Virus record (IMG/VR): IMGVR_UViG_3300003322_000790
Location: 1-29,357 of that record
Reading direction: 5' to 3' (one strand)
DNA length: 29,357 bases
DNA from: a virus
Below are positions 20,476 to 28,611 of the stretch, piece after piece. Each line of letters opens with the position of its first letter. Position 1 is the stretch's first letter. Under the pieces are notes generated by a model. That model saw nothing but the letters and a program-made list of their open reading frames with translations, did not search any database and was not told the DNA's origin. Position numbers and translations under genes: made by a program.

Positions 20476-20748
20476 CTATATTATCATAATAATATTGGGC
20501 TGCGTTATAAGTAAATATTCTTTTTTATTTATTTCAATAATAGGATAAACTGTACGGTCAAAAAGGATCTCATCTTCTTCTGATATTATTTCACTACATT
20601 TATCTCCCTTCTTGAAAACTTTTCCTTTTAATGGCCTTGATGAGATTGTTTGTTCAGCAAGAACAATCCCCCCTTCTGATTTCTCTTCGTCATCATACTT
20701 TTCTACTAATAACCTTTCTCCTAATGGTTGGTATTTGTTTGTACTCAC
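20476..20748 (-). CDS. Phage GroES-like co-chaperonin
   Basis: A 90-aa single-domain GroES family protein (cellular GroES is about 97 aa). It begins with YQPLGERLLVEK, has the mobile loop with EGGIVL at residues 25-30 (the tripeptide IVL is the GroEL-contacting motif of bacterial GroES), then LKGKVFKKGDK, EDEILFDRTV and a C-terminal strand IEINKKEYLLITQPNI. The T4 Gp31 precedent is a phage GroES that lets host GroEL fold the major capsid protein. The gene sits just upstream of the virion genes, consistent with capsid folding. It ends with TAG, showing that TAG serves as a stop in this genome. Confidence 0.85.
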   Translation of the reverse strand: MSTNKYQPLGERLLVEKYDDEEKSEGGIVLAEQTISSRPLKGKVFKKGDKCSEIISEEDEILFDRTVYPIIEINKKEYLLITQPNIIMII

Positions 20749-22209: not shown

Positions 22210-22676
22210 TATTCTTGGCGATTTGGGTTATATGAGATTAGGTTACCATCTTTTATTTCATCCTTAATAAAATTTAAGCGTTCATTCTTTTCATCCCGCC
22301 AAAATATATGAGGATTGAAATAATAATGCCCCTTGCCTACCTGAGTTATAGCTTTCGCATTTTTAAGTTCTGAAATGCAATTAAGGAATGTGCGGTAAGT
22401 TACTTCCATATTTGCATCCTTTCTGCCTAAGAATGAATTAAATGATTCAAAAAGGTGCTTAGAACTTACAAATCCGTTTTGCTTATTTATACTGTTCTTT
22501 AGGAGCCAGAATAAAAGTTTATAAGTAGTAACGGAATTTATACTGTCTGAAATTTCATTTATACAATCGTATATCTGCGTAAAATCAGTATCAACTTCAA
22601 TCCAACCTTGACGATTTTTAATTGTAGTTTCCTCAAATTGAAAGTATATCCTTCTCGGCATATCATGTATTTGCAT
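22209..22676 (-). CDS. RepL-like winged-helix replication/regulatory protein
   Basis: This 155-aa protein has a winged-helix region at about residues 45-130: SVTTYKLLFWLLKNSINKQNG, recognition-helix candidate MEVTYRTFLNCISELKNAKA and a wing ending ITQVGKGHYYFNPHIFW. The combination of late helix, KA-I-x-x-V-G-K-G-x-Y-x-FNP and W-R is typical of RepL-type plasmid and phage replication proteins. DNA binding is therefore likely, for replication or for control of the downstream block. Start choice: ATG at 22676 sits 2 nt from a TATATTTG box (22679-22686); if that box is the -7 promoter element, transcription would begin inside the codons after this ATG, and the in-frame ATG at 22661 (codon 6) becomes the better start. 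Confidence 0.6.
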   Translation of the reverse strand: MQIHDMPRRIYFQFEETTIKNRQGWIEVDTDFTQIYDCINEISDSINSVTTYKLLFWLLKNSINKQNGFVSSKHLFESFNSFLGRKDANMEVTYRTFLNCISELKNAKAITQVGKGHYYFNPHIFWRDEKNERLNFIKDEIKDGNLISYNPNRQE

Positions 22677-22678
22677 AA

Positions 22679-22686
22679 CAAATATA
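22679..22686 (-). promoter_or_regulatory. Candidate Bacteroidota -7 promoter box
   Basis: On the minus strand the sequence TATATTTG matches the Bacteroidota -7 consensus TAnnTTTG exactly. It ends 2 nt before the first ATG of the RepL-like gene, in the only sizeable gap of the leftward array. No clear -33 TTG element is present about 19 nt upstream, so the match may be chance in AT-rich DNA. If active it would drive the NinG, GroES and virion block and give a very short or absent leader. Confidence 0.4.
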
Positions 22687-22727: not shown

Positions 22728-22766
22728 GTGAAATAAAACATACGTATTAGTGAACTGTTATTTCAC
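22728..22766. repeat. Inverted repeat in the 223-nt gap (operator candidate)
   Basis: The 223-nt gap 22677-22899 holds no convincing gene. It contains GTGAAATAA at 22728-22736 and its exact reverse complement TTATTTCAC at 22758-22766, separated by 21 nt centred near TACGTA. A smaller inverted element (AATGAA / TTCATT) lies close to the RepL-like gene start around 22693-22710. Paired sites about three helical turns apart beside a promoter candidate suggest an operator bound by a dimer or pair of dimers, perhaps the RepL-like protein or the repressor at 27.4 kb. There is no T-run, so a terminator is unlikely. Confidence 0.45.
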
Positions 22767-23190: not shown

Positions 23191-23351
23191 GAAGCTTTAA
23201 CTATAAGATATAAAAGAAATAAAGCATCAATAAATGTTATTGCTGCCATAAAATAAAAAAAATAGCTTGAAACAAAATGAGAAATAAAAAGTACTATACT
23301 GCTTAATGGAAGTAAGTACGCGGTCATTTTAATTGTTCTGTCAAAACTCAT
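23187..23351 (-). CDS. Small two-helix membrane protein
   Basis: A 54-residue ORF running from ATG at 23351 to TGA at 23187. After a short basic start (MSFDRTIKM) there are two hydrophobic stretches, about residues 9-27 and 31-52, so a hairpin membrane protein is likely. Its TGA overlaps the next ATG (ATGA), and its start is preceded by the sequence also found before the 96-aa gene at 23664 (AACGTATTACAG on the plus strand). That coupling and leader support it as a real gene. A holin-like or superinfection-exclusion role is possible but unsupported. Confidence 0.65.
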   Translation of the reverse strand: MSFDRTIKMTAYLLPLSSIVLFISHFVSSYFFYFMAAITFIDALFLLYLIVKAS

Positions 23352-23360
23352 AATTTATTA

Positions 23361-23372
23361 AACGTATTACAG
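23361..23372 (-). promoter_or_regulatory. Half copy of the repeated upstream element
   Basis: AACGTATTACAG (plus-strand reading) lies 9 nt before the start codon of the 54-aa membrane gene and is identical to the proximal part of the full element at 23674-23701. The distal box TATTGTGT is missing here, since the corresponding position falls in the 3' end of the upstream gene. Confidence 0.45.
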
Positions 23373-23373
23373 A

Positions 23374-23664
23374 TTAAAGAATTTCAATTTCAAAATCGTC
23401 ATAATCACGCCCCACAATAACACCAGAGTATAATTCATGGTCTTTTTTTTGCCCATTATACCCAACGTAACCAATTCCTTCAATCAAACCATAATGCCCT
23501 TCCTTTACTACATGGTATGCTATCTGTTTTAGCATATCGTATTGGTCGGCTTCAGGATAGATAGCTTTTTTATATGCTTCTAAAGATTCTTTAAACTCTT
23601 TTGAGTCTGAATCGTAATCAAGTGTCACAGTTGTAGTTAATTCTAATGTTATTTGTTGTTGCAT
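23374..23664 (-). CDS. Hypothetical accessory protein
   Basis: This 96-aa acidic protein is of unknown family. Its N-terminus alternates hydrophobic residues (QITLELTTTVTLDYD), then a helix (EFKESLEAYKKAIYPEADQY), a helix (DMLKQIAYHVVKEGHYGLI) and a final acidic strand region (VGRDYDDFEIEIL). The layout resembles small host-takeover or inhibitor proteins, but this is not diagnostic. Its start is preceded by a full copy of the bipartite element, so it may have its own promoter. Confidence 0.6.
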   Translation of the reverse strand: MQQQITLELTTTVTLDYDSDSKEFKESLEAYKKAIYPEADQYDMLKQIAYHVVKEGHYGLIEGIGYVGYNGQKKDHELYSGVIVGRDYDDFEIEIL

Positions 23665-23673
23665 AATTTAAAA

Positions 23674-23701
23674 AACGTATTACAGTGAATGTATATTGTG
23701 T
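23674..23701 (-). promoter_or_regulatory. Bipartite upstream element, copy 1
   Basis: Plus-strand reading AACGTATT-N12-TATTGTGT, placed 9 nt before the start codon at 23664. Read in the direction of the gene this is ACACAATA-N12-AATACGTT. The same two boxes with the same 12-nt spacing occur at 24550-24577 and 26133-26160, each 8-10 nt before a start codon. It could be a promoter recognised by a phage-specific factor or a shared regulator site. Confidence 0.6.
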
Positions 23702-23718
23702 CGAATGATCAATATTTT

Positions 23719-23991
23719 TTACCAGCAAGAATAAACAGATGCTTCAAGGTCAAATTCATTTTTAACAGCATGGTAAATGGCATCGCATAAATTGTAACAT
23801 TCTGGCGCTGCTTCTTCAATTAATATAAATACCTCATTCTCATCTTCAAACTTTTTTACTTCGATGCATCTTATACTTCCCCAATTTACCGGGTCATTGG
23901 CTACTCCTGCTTCAACTCTTAATTCGGGATGTTCTACCAAATTATCTAAATATTTATTTACGTATTCTTTTATTTGCTCTTTTAAATTCAT
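23719..23991 (-). CDS. Hypothetical accessory protein
   Basis: This 90-aa acidic protein is of unknown family: a helix (LKEQIKEYVNKYLDNLVEHP), a strand region around WGSIRCIEVKKFEDENEVFI and a final helix (CYNLCDAIYHAVKNEFDLEA) with several Cys residues. No membrane segment. Its start is preceded by TATTGTGT at 24001-24008, the distal box of the repeated element, but without the proximal box. Confidence 0.6.
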   Translation of the reverse strand: MNLKEQIKEYVNKYLDNLVEHPELRVEAGVANDPVNWGSIRCIEVKKFEDENEVFILIEEAAPECYNLCDAIYHAVKNEFDLEASVYSCW

Positions 23992-24000
23992 ATTAAGCTA

Positions 24001-24008
24001 TATTGTGT
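24001..24008 (-). promoter_or_regulatory. Single TATTGTGT box before the 90-aa gene
   Basis: The octamer lies 9 nt from the start codon and is directly joined to the stop codon of the upstream gene. The 16 nt TATTGTGTTTATTTAA are identical here and at 24570, so the two gene junctions may share ancestry. Confidence 0.35.
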
Positions 24009-24539
24009 TTATTTAAAATATTTTTCAAATTCAGGATGAAGAAAACCTATACCTTGCTTACCTAATGACTTCCCATTAAAAAAATATCTAATCGGATGTA
24101 TTCTAATGACATTATCAAAAAGAAGACACCATTGTTTTTTGATGACATTTTTCCCGCTAACTTCAAATTCTCTTTCCCCCGCATACTTAACAAAGCATTT
24201 TTGTTCATCTACTTCAGACATGGGATAAAATTTAATTAAATCTCCATATCCTAATAAGGTTTCGTCCATGTTTTTAGTTACATCATTTTTTAGGATCGAC
24301 TTTATATTACTTGCTATTTCATTACCGCACCATTCAATAAGTGTTTTATTATCACACCATTTTCTTGTGGTATAAAAAGCATATCTCCCTAATGGGAAAG
24401 GGGGCTTTCTTCCTTTCATAACCCATCTCGTTTCTATTTTCCCATGAAACATTAATGACCCAAATGGTTGATAAAATCCAAGAGTTCTTATTGCATCTTT
24501 CATGTTTGTTGTTTCTGTATTACCAAAAAGGTCTGTCAT
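24009..24539 (-). CDS. ASCH/PUA-like domain protein
   Basis: This 176-aa protein resembles the ASCH family (PUA-like fold, RNA or nucleotide binding). Residues 19-60 show the order L-x-x-Y-Q-P-x-x-S-L-x-x-x-G-x-I-x-x-R followed by LGRYAFYTTRK, matching the ASCH opening (P-W/F-x-x-L-I/M-x-x-G-x-K-x-x-E-x-R, then G-x-x-x-I-H/Y-x-S). A full bipartite element precedes it. Phage ASCH proteins have been proposed to act on modified RNA or in translation control; here the role is unknown. Confidence 0.6.
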   Translation of the reverse strand: MTDLFGNTETTNMKDAIRTLGFYQPFGSLMFHGKIETRWVMKGRKPPFPLGRYAFYTTRKWCDNKTLIEWCGNEIASNIKSILKNDVTKNMDETLLGYGDLIKFYPMSEVDEQKCFVKYAGEREFEVSGKNVIKKQWCLLFDNVIRIHPIRYFFNGKSLGKQGIGFLHPEFEKYFK

Positions 24540-24549
24540 ATTTTTATTA

Positions 24550-24577
24550 AACGTTATTAATGGGTAGTTTATTGTGT
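24550..24577 (-). promoter_or_regulatory. Bipartite upstream element, copy 2
   Basis: AACGTTAT-N12-TATTGTGT in plus-strand reading, 10 nt before the start codon of the ASCH-like gene. It exactly fills the gap between this start codon and the stop codon of the upstream 131-aa gene. Confidence 0.6.
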
Positions 24578-24973
24578 TTATTTAATGTTTCCAGCAGGGA
24601 TAAAAGAAAGAATAAATGGCCTTTCAATATATTTATCTAATGGAATTTTATAATCATCAAATTCAAAACAAGTTACGGTTCCCCATTCGGTAGTTTCTAC
24701 TTCAAAATGTTGTGAAACGTCAAGTGCTTTCATGAATTTAATCCAATGTTCTCTTTCATGTGAAAATGGCGGGTGATTCATTCTTTCACATCTTTCAATA
24801 TAATCCTTTACCTCTTGAGAAAGTTGTTGTTTTTGTTGGTCTGTTAATCGTGAATAGTAATTGATAATTATATCATCTGGTAAGGTAGCGCAAGCGATTG
24901 ATTGACGGCCTAAAGCATATCTTAAAGCCATCCATAAAAGATTCCATTCAAAATCGGAAAGTGGTTGTATCAT
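24578..24973 (-). CDS. Conserved phage protein of unknown function
   Basis: This 131-aa protein begins with LSDFEWNLLWMALRYALGRQ, continues CATLPDDIIINYYSRLTDQQK and a charged helix (QEVKDYIERCERM), and ends in a compact region with YKIPLDKYIERPF. I recall this W-x-x-x-RYALGRQ pattern from uncharacterised proteins of Bacteroidota phages and mobile elements. The Trp/Arg-rich start and absence of membrane segments suggest a soluble binding protein. It starts in an ATGA overlap with the 86-aa gene. Confidence 0.55.
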   Translation of the reverse strand: MIQPLSDFEWNLLWMALRYALGRQSIACATLPDDIIINYYSRLTDQQKQQLSQEVKDYIERCERMNHPPFSHEREHWIKFMKALDVSQHFEVETTEWGTVTCFEFDDYKIPLDKYIERPFILSFIPAGNIK

Positions 24974-25230
24974 ATTATTTCACTTAATACTTTTTCATTA
25001 ACAAGTTCTGTTTCATCTAAGTCTGATAAAGGAATAAAGTGTTTTATTTTGTATCTACAATACAAAGGGCGCTCTTCTAAGATGTATGCTTTATCGGTAA
25101 GATTGAAAGCAGAATATACCTCATCCAATACCGTATAAGTTTCTCCAAAATAAACACCTAATTCTGGTAGTATTTTAGTTACACTGCCATTAAACCCATG
25201 ATTTGCAGTCTGAATGCAAAGGACTTTCAT
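24970..25230 (-). CDS. Conserved hypothetical protein, beta-rich
   Basis: This 86-aa protein starts MKVLCIQTANHGFNG, continues LGVYFGETYTVLDEV and AYILEERPLYCRYKIKHFIP, and ends with LSDLDETELVNEKVLSEI. The pattern (strand, GETYTV, YxLEE, FIPLSDLDE) is familiar from small uncharacterised Bacteroidota phage and plasmid proteins, probably a small SH3-like barrel. ATGA overlap with the next gene. Function unknown. Confidence 0.6.
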   Translation of the reverse strand: MKVLCIQTANHGFNGSVTKILPELGVYFGETYTVLDEVYSAFNLTDKAYILEERPLYCRYKIKHFIPLSDLDETELVNEKVLSEII

Positions 25231-25244
25231 AAAAAATGTTTTTA

Positions 25245-25433
25245 TTAAGCAATTTCTTTGCCGGTTATAGTTTCATATATACTGCAAAACATTCTTATTA
25301 CGACCATTAAAGGCCAAAATACACCCCATAACACATTACTACAAGAGTACCAAATATCATCGCTATCCCAAAAGTAAAAAGCTATGAAAACCAATGTAAT
25401 TGTTATTCCTATATAAATACCCAAGTAGATCAT
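25245..25433 (-). CDS. Small two-helix membrane protein
   Basis: This 62-aa protein has two hydrophobic segments: residues 2-22 (IYLGIYIGITITLVFIAFYF) and about 31-50 (CSNVLWGVFWPLMVVIRMFC), joined by an acidic turn (WDSDDIWYS). The C-terminus is short and polar. The start is in an ATGA overlap with a 51-residue gene. A small hairpin membrane protein could be a holin-like or superinfection protein; no motif decides it. Confidence 0.6.
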   Translation of the reverse strand: MIYLGIYIGITITLVFIAFYFWDSDDIWYSCSNVLWGVFWPLMVVIRMFCSIYETITGKEIA

Positions 25434-25585
25434 TGTTCATTATTTTTAATAAGGGAAAATATTACTTTAAGTTCACTAATTGAAAAGGAAACAAATAAAA
25501 AATCTTCATCTTCACTTTTATAAAAATCAATTGAATTATTAATTTTATTGATAACGCTATCTACTTCTTCTTTAGTGTATGGCAT
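25430..25585 (-). CDS. Small hypothetical protein (51 aa)
   Basis: A 51-residue ORF from ATG at 25585 to TGA at 25430. It begins MPYTKEEVDSVINKINNSID and ends VSFSISELKVIFSLIKNNEQ, so two helices are likely. Its TGA overlaps the next ATG (ATGA), and its start overlaps the end of the 63-aa gene by 14 nt, both typical of this array. The first 15 nt of the gene (25571-25585) recur at 25772-25786. Function unknown. Confidence 0.65.
   Translation of the reverse strand: MPYTKEEVDSVINKINNSIDFYKSEDEDFLFVSFSISELKVIFSLIKNNEQ
25571..25585. repeat. 15-nt repeat copy A (start of the 51-aa gene)
   Basis: TTTAGTGTATGGCAT occurs here and at 25772-25786. In leftward reading it encodes the start MPYTK of the 51-aa gene. 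Confidence 0.7.
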
Positions 25586-25763
25586 CATAAATATTTTTAA
25601 ATTTCAGAATAGTCATATTCTTTCTTCTATGGTCATAAGGTGTTAATTCTACTCCTAATGGGGAAACATGAGTTACTTTATACTTAATGCCATTCAAGGT
25701 TATATCTTCCCCCAATAGTAATTTAAAAGCATAATCTTCTCTTGTATCTACTTTGCATTTCAT
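25572..25763 (-). CDS. Hypothetical protein (63 aa)
   Basis: This 63-aa protein has a basic start (MKCKVDTREDYAFKLLLGED), then a beta-rich stretch (ITLNGIKYKVTHVSPLGVEL) and a C-terminal segment NMTILKFKNIYDAIH. It is probably a small beta-barrel-like domain of unknown role. Its ATG overlaps the stop of an 8-codon ORF (25760-25786), a possible translational coupling signal. Confidence 0.55.
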   Translation of the reverse strand: MKCKVDTREDYAFKLLLGEDITLNGIKYKVTHVSPLGVELTPYDHRRKNMTILKFKNIYDAIH

Positions 25764-25786
25764 AAAATTATTTTAGTGTATGGCAT
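25760..25786 (-). other. 8-codon mini-ORF carrying repeat copy B
   Basis: Leftward ATG at 25786 opens MPYTKIIL and stops at a TGA that overlaps the ATG of the 63-aa gene (ATGA). The first 15 nt are copy B (25772-25786) of the repeat at 25571-25585. It is either a leader peptide used for translational coupling or the remnant of a duplicated gene start. No independent evidence of translation is available. Confidence 0.35.
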
Positions 25787-25794
25787 GAGATAAA

Positions 25795-26124
25795 TCATTT
25801 ACTAAATGATTCAAGTCCTATTGCACGTTTAAATACATCTGACTTTTCATTGCTTTTTAAAAAGTTTTCAAAAGCCTCTCCACTAGTATCGCCCCCGCCA
25901 AAAGGTATTTTATTGTTTTTACAAAAACATTCAAGAGAAGCACCAAAAGGAGCATTCTGGTATCTTTTCTGATTCTCTTCCGGCATTATGTATGCTAATA
26001 CATATTTGTAAAAACCACCCATTCCTCTCTTTTTATGACCAGCGCCACCTTCAATATGCAAATAATGATAAAACCAAAAACCATTAACAGCACTTTTAGT
26101 CATTAAATAATTTGGAATATTCAT
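25795..26124 (-). CDS. Hypothetical accessory protein
   Basis: This 109-aa protein is rich in Gly and aromatic residues. Notable stretches are VNGFWFYHYLHIEGGAGHKK, GMGGFYKYVLAYIMPEENQK and KIPFGGGDTSGEAFENFLKS. It is not a membrane protein and I do not recognise a family. A full bipartite element precedes its start codon. It ends with TGA. Confidence 0.6.
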   Translation of the reverse strand: MNIPNYLMTKSAVNGFWFYHYLHIEGGAGHKKRGMGGFYKYVLAYIMPEENQKRYQNAPFGASLECFCKNNKIPFGGGDTSGEAFENFLKSNEKSDVFKRAIGLESFSK

Positions 26125-26132
26125 AATTAATA

Positions 26133-26160
26133 AACGTTATGAGTTATTTTACTATTGTGT
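26133..26160 (-). promoter_or_regulatory. Bipartite upstream element, copy 3
   Basis: AACGTTAT-N12-TATTGTGT in plus-strand reading, 8 nt before the start codon of the 109-aa gene. The eight-base boxes equal those of copy 2 and the spacing is identical, while the 12-nt spacers differ. Confidence 0.6.
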
Positions 26161-27383: not shown

Positions 27384-27599
27384 ATGGAACTTGTAAGAGA
27401 CACAATTAAGGCCGAATTAAAGAATCAGGGACGGTCAAATCGCTACTTGATAAAAAAGTTAAAAGAGGACTACAATATTAAGCTAAATGACGCACAAATA
27501 TCAAACAGATTAAATGGAAGTAGAGAATTTACAGTAGATGAAGTCGCTGCTTGCTGTGCAATTTTGAGTATTGAGCCAAACAAAATATTAAGTGTATGA
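27384..27599 (+). CDS. Small XRE/Cro-like helix-turn-helix regulator
   Basis: This 71-aa protein is entirely helical, with a likely helix-turn-helix at about residues 20-45 (RYLIKKLKEDYNIKLNDAQI then SNRLNG) followed by VDEVAACCAILSIEPNKIL. The ending A-x-[IL]-L-x-[IV]-x-P-x-x-[IL]-L is typical of XRE family repressors. Position at the strand switch, next to the promoter region, suggests it controls one or both arms. Its TGA overlaps the ATG of the GIY-YIG gene. Confidence 0.7.
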   Translation: MELVRDTIKAELKNQGRSNRYLIKKLKEDYNIKLNDAQISNRLNGSREFTVDEVAACCAILSIEPNKILSV

Positions 27600-28006
27600 A
27601 CCAAATAACTACTGTAAATTTTATAGGATTAGATTGGTATAGAATACCTTTTCAATCCATAAACAAGATTAAATTTCCTATTACATACGCTGTTTACATG
27701 TTTGTTTTAGATTCAAATTGTAACCGTAACAATGAGATATTATATTGTGGGTCAACTAACTCAATTAGTGGAAGATTTAATTCCCATCATGTACTTGCGG
27801 ACATAAAAAATAAAAACAGGTCGCAAGCGAATATATTTTTATATTTTAGAGATAATAAATTGGACTGGAAAATTGAAAGTAAGCTAATTCACAAATATCA
27901 TCCTATTTATAATCGGCACAGTCATAGATATTCTCAGTTAAGAATTGATAATTTCTGGGATGAAGTATCTAAAACAACTATATTATACCACGATGTTTTA
28001 ATTTAG
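27596..28006 (+). CDS. GIY-YIG nuclease
   Basis: This 136-aa protein has the GIY-YIG layout: AVY at residues 32-34 and YCG at 50-52 as the two short motifs, catalytic-type Arg at 60 in SGRF, His64 nearby, metal-binding Glu94 (WKIESKLIHKYHP) and Asn106 in IYNRH. The two signature tripeptides deviate from GIY and YIG only modestly. It lacks extra DNA-binding domains, so it may be a free-standing homing or host-DNA nuclease, or belong to DNA processing. ATGA overlap with the upstream repressor gene; an intrinsic terminator begins at its TAG stop. Confidence 0.75.
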   Translation: MNQITTVNFIGLDWYRIPFQSINKIKFPITYAVYMFVLDSNCNRNNEILYCGSTNSISGRFNSHHVLADIKNKNRSQANIFLYFRDNKLDWKIESKLIHKYHPIYNRHSHRYSQLRIDNFWDEVSKTTILYHDVLI

Positions 28007-28037
28007 GCACCAGCTTTAAACTGTAGTGCCTCTTTTT
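28005..28037 (+). terminator. Intrinsic terminator after the GIY-YIG gene
   Basis: Stem AGGCAC (28005-28010) pairs with GTGCCT (28026-28031), with an inner CAG/CTG extension across a small bulge, followed by T5 at 28033-28037. The stem is much more GC-rich than its surroundings and includes the last bases of the TAG stop. It would end transcription of the repressor and GIY-YIG pair, or attenuate it before the HNH gene. Confidence 0.75.
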
Positions 28038-28062
28038 ATTTATAGATGTAACATACTCAAAT

Positions 28063-28611
28063 ATGCCAGAGCGTATACCCCTGTCTAAAAAACTAAGATT
28101 TGATATATTTAAAAGGGATGCATTTACTTGCCAATACTGTGGGAATACCCCACCTCAAGTCATTCTTGAGATTGATCATATTATACCTGTTTCAAAAAAA
28201 GGAACTAATCAAATTGATAATTTAATCACTTCTTGTTTTGAATGCAACAGAGGTAAGAGCAATTTTGAATTATCAATTCTACCCAAAACAACTATTGAGA
28301 AAAAAGAATTATTAATTGAAAAAGAAACTCAATATAAGGAATATCAAAAATTACTTATAAAAGTAGATAAACGAATAAGACAAGACATTCAATTAATTGA
28401 TGATACTTTTCAGAGACATTTCCCCGATAGAGAAACTACTAAATCTTTTAAACATTCATCTATAAGAAAATTTATAGAAAAATTAGGTTTTATTGAAGTT
28501 AATAATGCAATGGAAGCAGCTTGCTCCAAAATGATAGATTCTGGACAAGCATTGAAATATTTCTGTGGAATTTGTTGGACTATAATCAAAAGAAAAAATA
28601 ATAATGAGTAA
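28063..28611 (+). CDS. HNH endonuclease with C-terminal extra domain
   Basis: A complete zinc-bound HNH nuclease: C23-Q-Y-C26, E-I-D38-H39 (the catalytic His in EIDHIIPVS), Asn in DNLI and the second pair C58-x2-C61 in SCFECNRGKSN. All four zinc ligands are intact, unlike the NinG-like protein on the other arm. Residues about 80-182 form a separate, mostly helical domain ending KYFCGICWTIIKRK, which is often found with HNH or replication proteins in phages of Gram-positive and Bacteroidota hosts. It may be involved in DNA processing during replication or be a free-standing mobile nuclease. Overlaps the next gene by 8 nt. Confidence 0.8.
   Translation: MPERIPLSKKLRFDIFKRDAFTCQYCGNTPPQVILEIDHIIPVSKKGTNQIDNLITSCFECNRGKSNFELSILPKTTIEKKELLIEKETQYKEYQKLLIKVDKRIRQDIQLIDDTFQRHFPDRETTKSFKHSSIRKFIEKLGFIEVNNAMEAACSKMIDSGQALKYFCGICWTIIKRKNNNE

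Follow-up and report, generated by a model that had tools for sequence, protein, structure and literature searches.

The viral record IMGVR_UViG_3300003322_000790 carries a repeated two-box DNA element ahead of its leftward accessory genes, and this repeat is real and lies beyond chance. The window, that is, the whole record of 29,357 nucleotides (nt), was examined and is probably a fragment of a larger genome. In the coding direction (minus strand) the element reads ACACAATA-N12-A(TA/AT)ACGTTT followed by an ATG, and it is present in three full copies. We consider it somewhat probable that the element represents a class of promoters with altered specificity, which would start each accessory-gene block and yield nearly leaderless mRNAs. 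The full and half copies are as follows.

26133..26160, minus strand: full copy 3, ACACAATA-N12-ATAACGTT, exact match, 8 nt before the ATG at 26124
24550..24577, minus strand: full copy 2, ACACAATA-N12-ATAACGTT, exact match, 10 nt before the ATG at 24539
23674..23701, minus strand: full copy 1, ACACAATA-N12-AATACGTT, two mismatches to the pattern of the original prediction, 9 nt before the ATG at 23664
23361..23368, minus strand: half copy lacking box 1, with box 2 (AATACGTT) 9 nt upstream of the ATG at 23351
24001..24008, minus strand: half copy lacking box 2, with box 1 (ACACAATA) 9 nt upstream of the ATG at 23991

The original prediction had described these three full copies with their 12-nt gap and their position 8-10 nt ahead of leftward start codons, together with a variant box in copy 1 and the two half copies, and every one of these particulars was found to be correct. 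Read leftward from 26160 and 24577, the copies are ACACAATA-N12-ATAACGTTT, and from 23701 the copy is ACACAATA-N12-AATACGTTT; the sole difference between boxes is therefore ATA versus AAT before ACGTTT, that is, AACGTATT in place of AACGTTAT in copy 1. The gap is 12 nt in all three, with spacer sequences that are unrelated, and the ATG follows the WACGTTTW octamer at 6-8 nt and the 8-nt box used previously at 8-10 nt. Copy 2 begins right after the stop codon of the gene at 24578-24973. Regarding the half copies, the position of box 1 at 23361-23368 is taken by the coding end of the gene at 23374-23664, which lacks ACACAATA, and CTGTAATACGTTTnnTAAATTATG at this site agrees with copy 1 at 22 of 24 positions (92%, repeat D7), while the half copy at 24001-24008 is identical to the copy at 24577 over 16 nt (TTAAATAAACACAATA, repeat D17). 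Within the record, ACACAATA occurs four times, always on the minus strand and just before leftward starts, and four of the seven occurrences of WACGTTT lie at element-bearing starts.

The full motif does not recur elsewhere in the 29-kb record: a scan allowing gaps of 8-17 nt returned only the three full copies, all with a gap of 12 nt and all at the three starts. Allowing up to three mismatches gave four matches against 0.65 expected in shuffles, the fourth of which (25553, three mismatches) lies inside a gene. As the motif had been chosen post hoc, we corrected for this choice with a test in which any gapped word was allowed across 39 upstream regions, using order-2 Markov simulations: an 8+6 gapped word common to three upstream regions at equal information content appeared in 0 of 2,000 simulations, and a 6+6 version in 3 of 2,000, the information-content weighting having been picked after a count-only result was seen. 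That earlier 6+6 dyad test, based on counts only, fell short of significance because A/T-rich words dominated it.

The placement of the copies is equally regular. They precede the starts at 23664, 24539 and 26124, all on the coding strand, and fill the three widest intergenic gaps (54, 38 and 46 nt) of the leftward accessory run at 22.9-26.4 kb, whose other starts overlap the preceding gene or follow gaps of 14-31 nt; therefore, the full copies head gene blocks of this run. Were three copies dealt randomly to the roughly 11 starts, the chance of hitting the three widest gaps would be 1 in 165, a figure that is not independent of the room a full copy takes, as its 36-38 nt or so fit only into roomy gaps. 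The genes that directly follow the copies, and the one start in this region with a different signal, are listed here.

25795..26124, minus strand: first gene of the copy-3 block (genes 26124 to 24578), 109 amino acids (aa), no relatives found
24009..24539, minus strand: first gene of the copy-2 block, 176 aa, no relatives found
23374..23664, minus strand: gene following copy 1, 96 aa, with no more than a weak phrog_19384 match
22679..22686, minus strand: host-type -7 element with the consensus sequence TATATTTG, 2 nt upstream of the ATG at 22676

The gene at 22676 is the first of the run leading into the structural genes, and it carries a host-type -7 element, not the two-box element. A consensus TATATTTG in the same phage implies, therefore, that two promoter types would coexist in it. 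About 50 nt upstream of this -7 element lies an inverted repeat, GTGAAATAA ... TTATTTCAC (9-nt arms, 21 nt apart, around TACGTATTA, 22728-22766), which is a possible operator.

The phage likely infects a Bacteroidota host, as its terminase matches counterparts in Flavobacterium and Cellulophaga phages (about 27% identity). The same terminase shares 54-67% identity with ten IMG/VR contigs (the longest of 69-72 kb; numbered with the prefix G, and loci with the prefix L), and the structural gene order is conserved between the record and these relatives. In Flavobacterium johnsoniae, the -7 element is TAHHTTTG, with six nearly invariant bases and G virtually absent at -10/-9 (PMC6847099). The four box-2 copies (TACGTTTA, TACGTTTT, AACGTTTA and AACGTTTA) keep A-11 and the TTT of this element but have G at -9 and lack G-5 in 4 of 4 cases, and lack T-12 in 2 of 4, so that box 2 does not conform to a primary-sigma -7 element. 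Nor is TTTG found near -33, about 20 nt upstream of the -7; ACACAATA occupies that place in three copies, and the half copy at 23351 has a TTG 18 nt upstream. The original prediction had stated that the element fits the host -33/-7 consensus poorly, which is mostly right in view of these mismatches, but the element is not unrelated to it either. Several relatives contain host-type promoter-like sites of the form TTTG-N20-TACGTTT(G/A), 3-4 nt before the ATG, namely TTTG-N20-TACGTTTG twice in G002 and TTTG-N20-TACGTTTA in G005; G006 has TTTG-N20-TAACGTTG. When aligned on ACGTT, box 2 falls on the -7 of these sites and ACACAATA within 2 nt of their TTTG (-33), and this alignment is the strongest evidence for what would be a promoter layout. 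Additionally, TATATTTG is present as a -7 element right before an ATG in G009 and G006 as well, and -7-like elements ending 2-4 nt before an ATG are seen twice each in G002 and G006, and in G009, G005 and the window (22676). Their recurrence suggests that phages of this group may commonly make leaderless transcripts.

According to the reading that we prefer, box 2 (WACGTTTW) would be the melted -7/-10 region and box 1 (ACACAATA) would take the -33/-35 position, read by something beyond the host primary sigma alone. The predicted start site lies some 6-9 nt past box 2 and thus only a few nt from the ATG, which would leave the mRNAs with almost no leader. The reader could be an alternative sigma factor of the extracytoplasmic function (ECF) type, phage-encoded or from the host, that would recognize ACACAATA-N16-CGT, a pattern present in all three full copies; or else a phage activator that would substitute for sigma region 4, as MotA does in phage T4. 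A spacing of 16 nt is the usual one of ECF promoters, and the likeness of the element to their layout (CGT at -10 and an upstream box at a distance of about 16 nt) rests on CGT and spacing, not on the -35 sequence. Among the relatives, G006 encodes a full-length, 210-aa Bacteroidota-type ECF sigma (TIGR02985, E 9e-23; L041:1123-1755), and G005 has a match to sigma region 2 only. The G006 gene lies downstream of a 166-aa open reading frame (ORF). A sigma region-4 match in G001 was set aside, as it belongs to a 236-aa ORF that has no region-2 match. A more specific proposal, that a dedicated Bacteroidota phage programme uses a phage ECF-type sigma (as in G006) or a MotA-like activator to read ACACAATA-N12-AWWACGTTT and to drive nearly leaderless accessory mRNAs, is tentative and on balance doubtful.

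Several observations weigh against a promoter of altered specificity. The original prediction had interpreted the fixed spacing and free spacers as a protein-bound site, and a promoter-like site is indeed the best-supported reading of the sequence, but no sigma factor, polymerase or activator was identified in the fragment, and no full sigma was found in the closest relatives G001, G002 and G009 (the last of 69 kb). A PF00940 search for single-subunit RNA polymerases, uninformative because it had been run without a positive control, gave no match in ten records. ECF sigmas usually recognize an AAC-type -35 box, and ACACAATA is not of this type. There are only three full copies, and none of the ten relatives contains the exact element, which therefore lacks phylogenetic conservation; at up to three mismatches, their scan gave one match against five for a reversed control, and de novo dyads in nine relatives included no counterpart of the two-box element. 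Furthermore, only a minority of mRNAs in Bacteroidota are leaderless or have a 5' untranslated region shorter than 10 nt, with 5.5% in Flavobacterium psychrophilum (PMC9723704) and a published figure of 3.7% in Bacteroides thetaiotaomicron. Simple scans for E. coli sigma-70 promoters and terminators showed no excess over shuffles. Among the relatives, G009 (L029, 63.8-68.4 kb) has a repeat of its own, approximately TCACTTTTAAAAACT, a short way upstream of the ATG in several small leftward genes, with GAAAGTTGAAAGTTGATTTATnTTTG appearing twice, and G007 (L030, 4485-4944) has three small genes with similar hairpin leaders of the type GCCGCTTAGGTGGCGCAAA.

The same features could be explained by an operator, in which a phage repressor would bind box 2 (perhaps also box 1), cover a weak host promoter and silence the accessory genes. 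In line with this notion, G002, G005 and G006 have ACGT in tandem, at intervals of 5-8 nt, across the promoter-like site of homologous genes for basic proteins of 66-81 aa, and such tandem motifs are found at a second G002 gene as well; their location over the -7 suggests autoregulation in the relatives. ACGT is also enriched in the intergenic DNA of the window, where 6 of 25 sites fall into 4.9% of the sequence, and the XRE-like regulator of the window has homologues in G002 and G008. The ACGTT of the window is single, however, not tandem, and the two boxes do not repeat one another in either inverted or direct orientation, unlike the usual XRE operators and the sites of dimeric repressors. 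Moreover, the regulator gene that the window itself carries (27384) has neither box ahead of it, and the small basic proteins, none of which is encoded in the fragment, resemble ribbon-helix-helix proteins by eye only (no Pfam match; predicted local distance difference test score, pLDDT, 56). Single non-symmetric ACGTT boxes and a constant ACACAATA at a fixed distance therefore lead us to favour a sigma factor or activator over a repressor, and we regard the operator as unlikely.

Weak promoters of the host primary sigma, with WACGTTTW as their -7 and box 1 as a coincidence or a UP-like AT-rich stretch, would account for the retained A-11 and TTT and for the use of TACGTTTG and TACGTTTA with TTTG at -33 in the relatives; the -33 element is weak in F. 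johnsoniae (PMC6847099), and the half copy at 23351 has TACGTTTA in the absence of ACACAATA. Yet the departures of box 2 described above concern a nearly invariant consensus, and a primary sigma does not need eight bases to be conserved exactly at a fixed distance, which makes this explanation decidedly improbable. The element could otherwise act in RNA, as an mRNA leader or a read-through site for a translational regulator, given the constant short distance to the start codon and the dense same-strand genes, which are probably co-transcribed. No stable or shared RNA fold was detected at the three copies, however (z 1.4, 0.6 and -0.4), and RNA operators do not usually consist of two boxes on either side of a free 12-nt spacer, so that we attach very little probability to this reading. 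We give still less credence to a trace of modular gene shuffling, in which intergenic cassettes were duplicated along with inserted genes and have no regulatory role: the extended flanks shared by pairs of copies (22 of 24 nt; 16 nt) agree with it, but neutral decay would not yield three full copies with intact boxes, an exact gap and unrelated spacers.

Outside the record, an exact pattern scan of viral contigs with two longer forms of the motif gave no matches. A shortened pattern matched 43 viral loci and, in genomes, at least 81 sites at 80 or more loci; an ATG that opens a frame of 40 aa or more followed after 4-13 nt in none of the 43 viral loci and in 3 of 81 among the genome matches listed, counts that stand without a background rate for such placement. 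As they are not placed before genes, these matches were dismissed as chance hits, including the most similar one (L142, in a metagenome-assembled genome of Chitinophaga), which overlaps a longer ORF. Among the matches listed there is no sign of a widespread host regulon with the exact element sequence, and on present data the exact motif appears private to this phage. Likewise, the ten relatives have no homologues of the accessory run (22.9-27.3 kb), and those of its genes that were searched singly against viral contigs and a phage collection returned no relatives.

Two further genes of the window can be named.

27384..27599, plus strand: XRE/Cro-CI-like DNA-binding protein gene, 71 aa, model pLDDT 88.7
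20476-20748, minus strand: GroES-like co-chaperonin (Cpn10) gene, PF00166, E 7e-12

The XRE-like gene is divergent from the accessory run and is a candidate regulator; its model resembles C.Esp1396I and P22 c2 at a template-modelling (TM) score of about 0.7, with Foldseek E values above 0.1. Beside it stand tandem GIY-YIG and HNH endonuclease genes (27596-28611, plus strand), possibly homing endonucleases. The GroES-like gene adjoins the structural module and has a weak homologue in G002.

If the preferred promoter reading is true, a phage-specific promoter class beside host-type promoters in one genome would be a testable case of gene timing, in which the element would mark accessory genes that share a stage of action and would supply a promoter that stays silent without its own reader. 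In this regard, limited literature searches found no account of how Bacteroidota phages time their genes, given host promoters that are not E. coli-like. With the primary-sigma promoters of Bacteroidota (TTTG, TAnnTTTG), the element shares the overall layout, A-11 and TTT, and it differs from them in lacking TTTG at -33 and G-5 and in having G at -9. A CGT box in the -10 region, as in the element, marks the flavobacterial ECF-sigma promoter class SM6 of F. psychrophilum (PMC9723704); SM6 belongs to a chromosomal regulon and the element to a phage, and the likeness lies in CGT, with ACACAATA at 16 nt from it, and not in the -35. In the middle promoters of T4, a MotA box replaces the -35 at 12 +/-1 bp from the -10 (PMC2988021), comparable to the upstream box of the element, which would stand in for a -35 some 12 bp ahead of a sigma-type box; the spacing fits, whereas these promoters demand an excellent -10 and box 2 is a poor host -7. 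Homologues of MotA or AsiA were not seen, though no search was aimed at them. The late promoters of phage 7-11 (GTAAtg-16-aCTA) are read by the phage sigma SaPh711_gp47, which uses the host core polymerase and starts transcription 6-9 bp from the motif, and they had escaped motif search alone (PMC8948821). Unlike the element, they have been mapped and tested in vitro, their sigma gene is known, and their sequences and host phylum are others; like the element, they are bipartite, keep a fixed spacing and differ from the promoters of their relatives.

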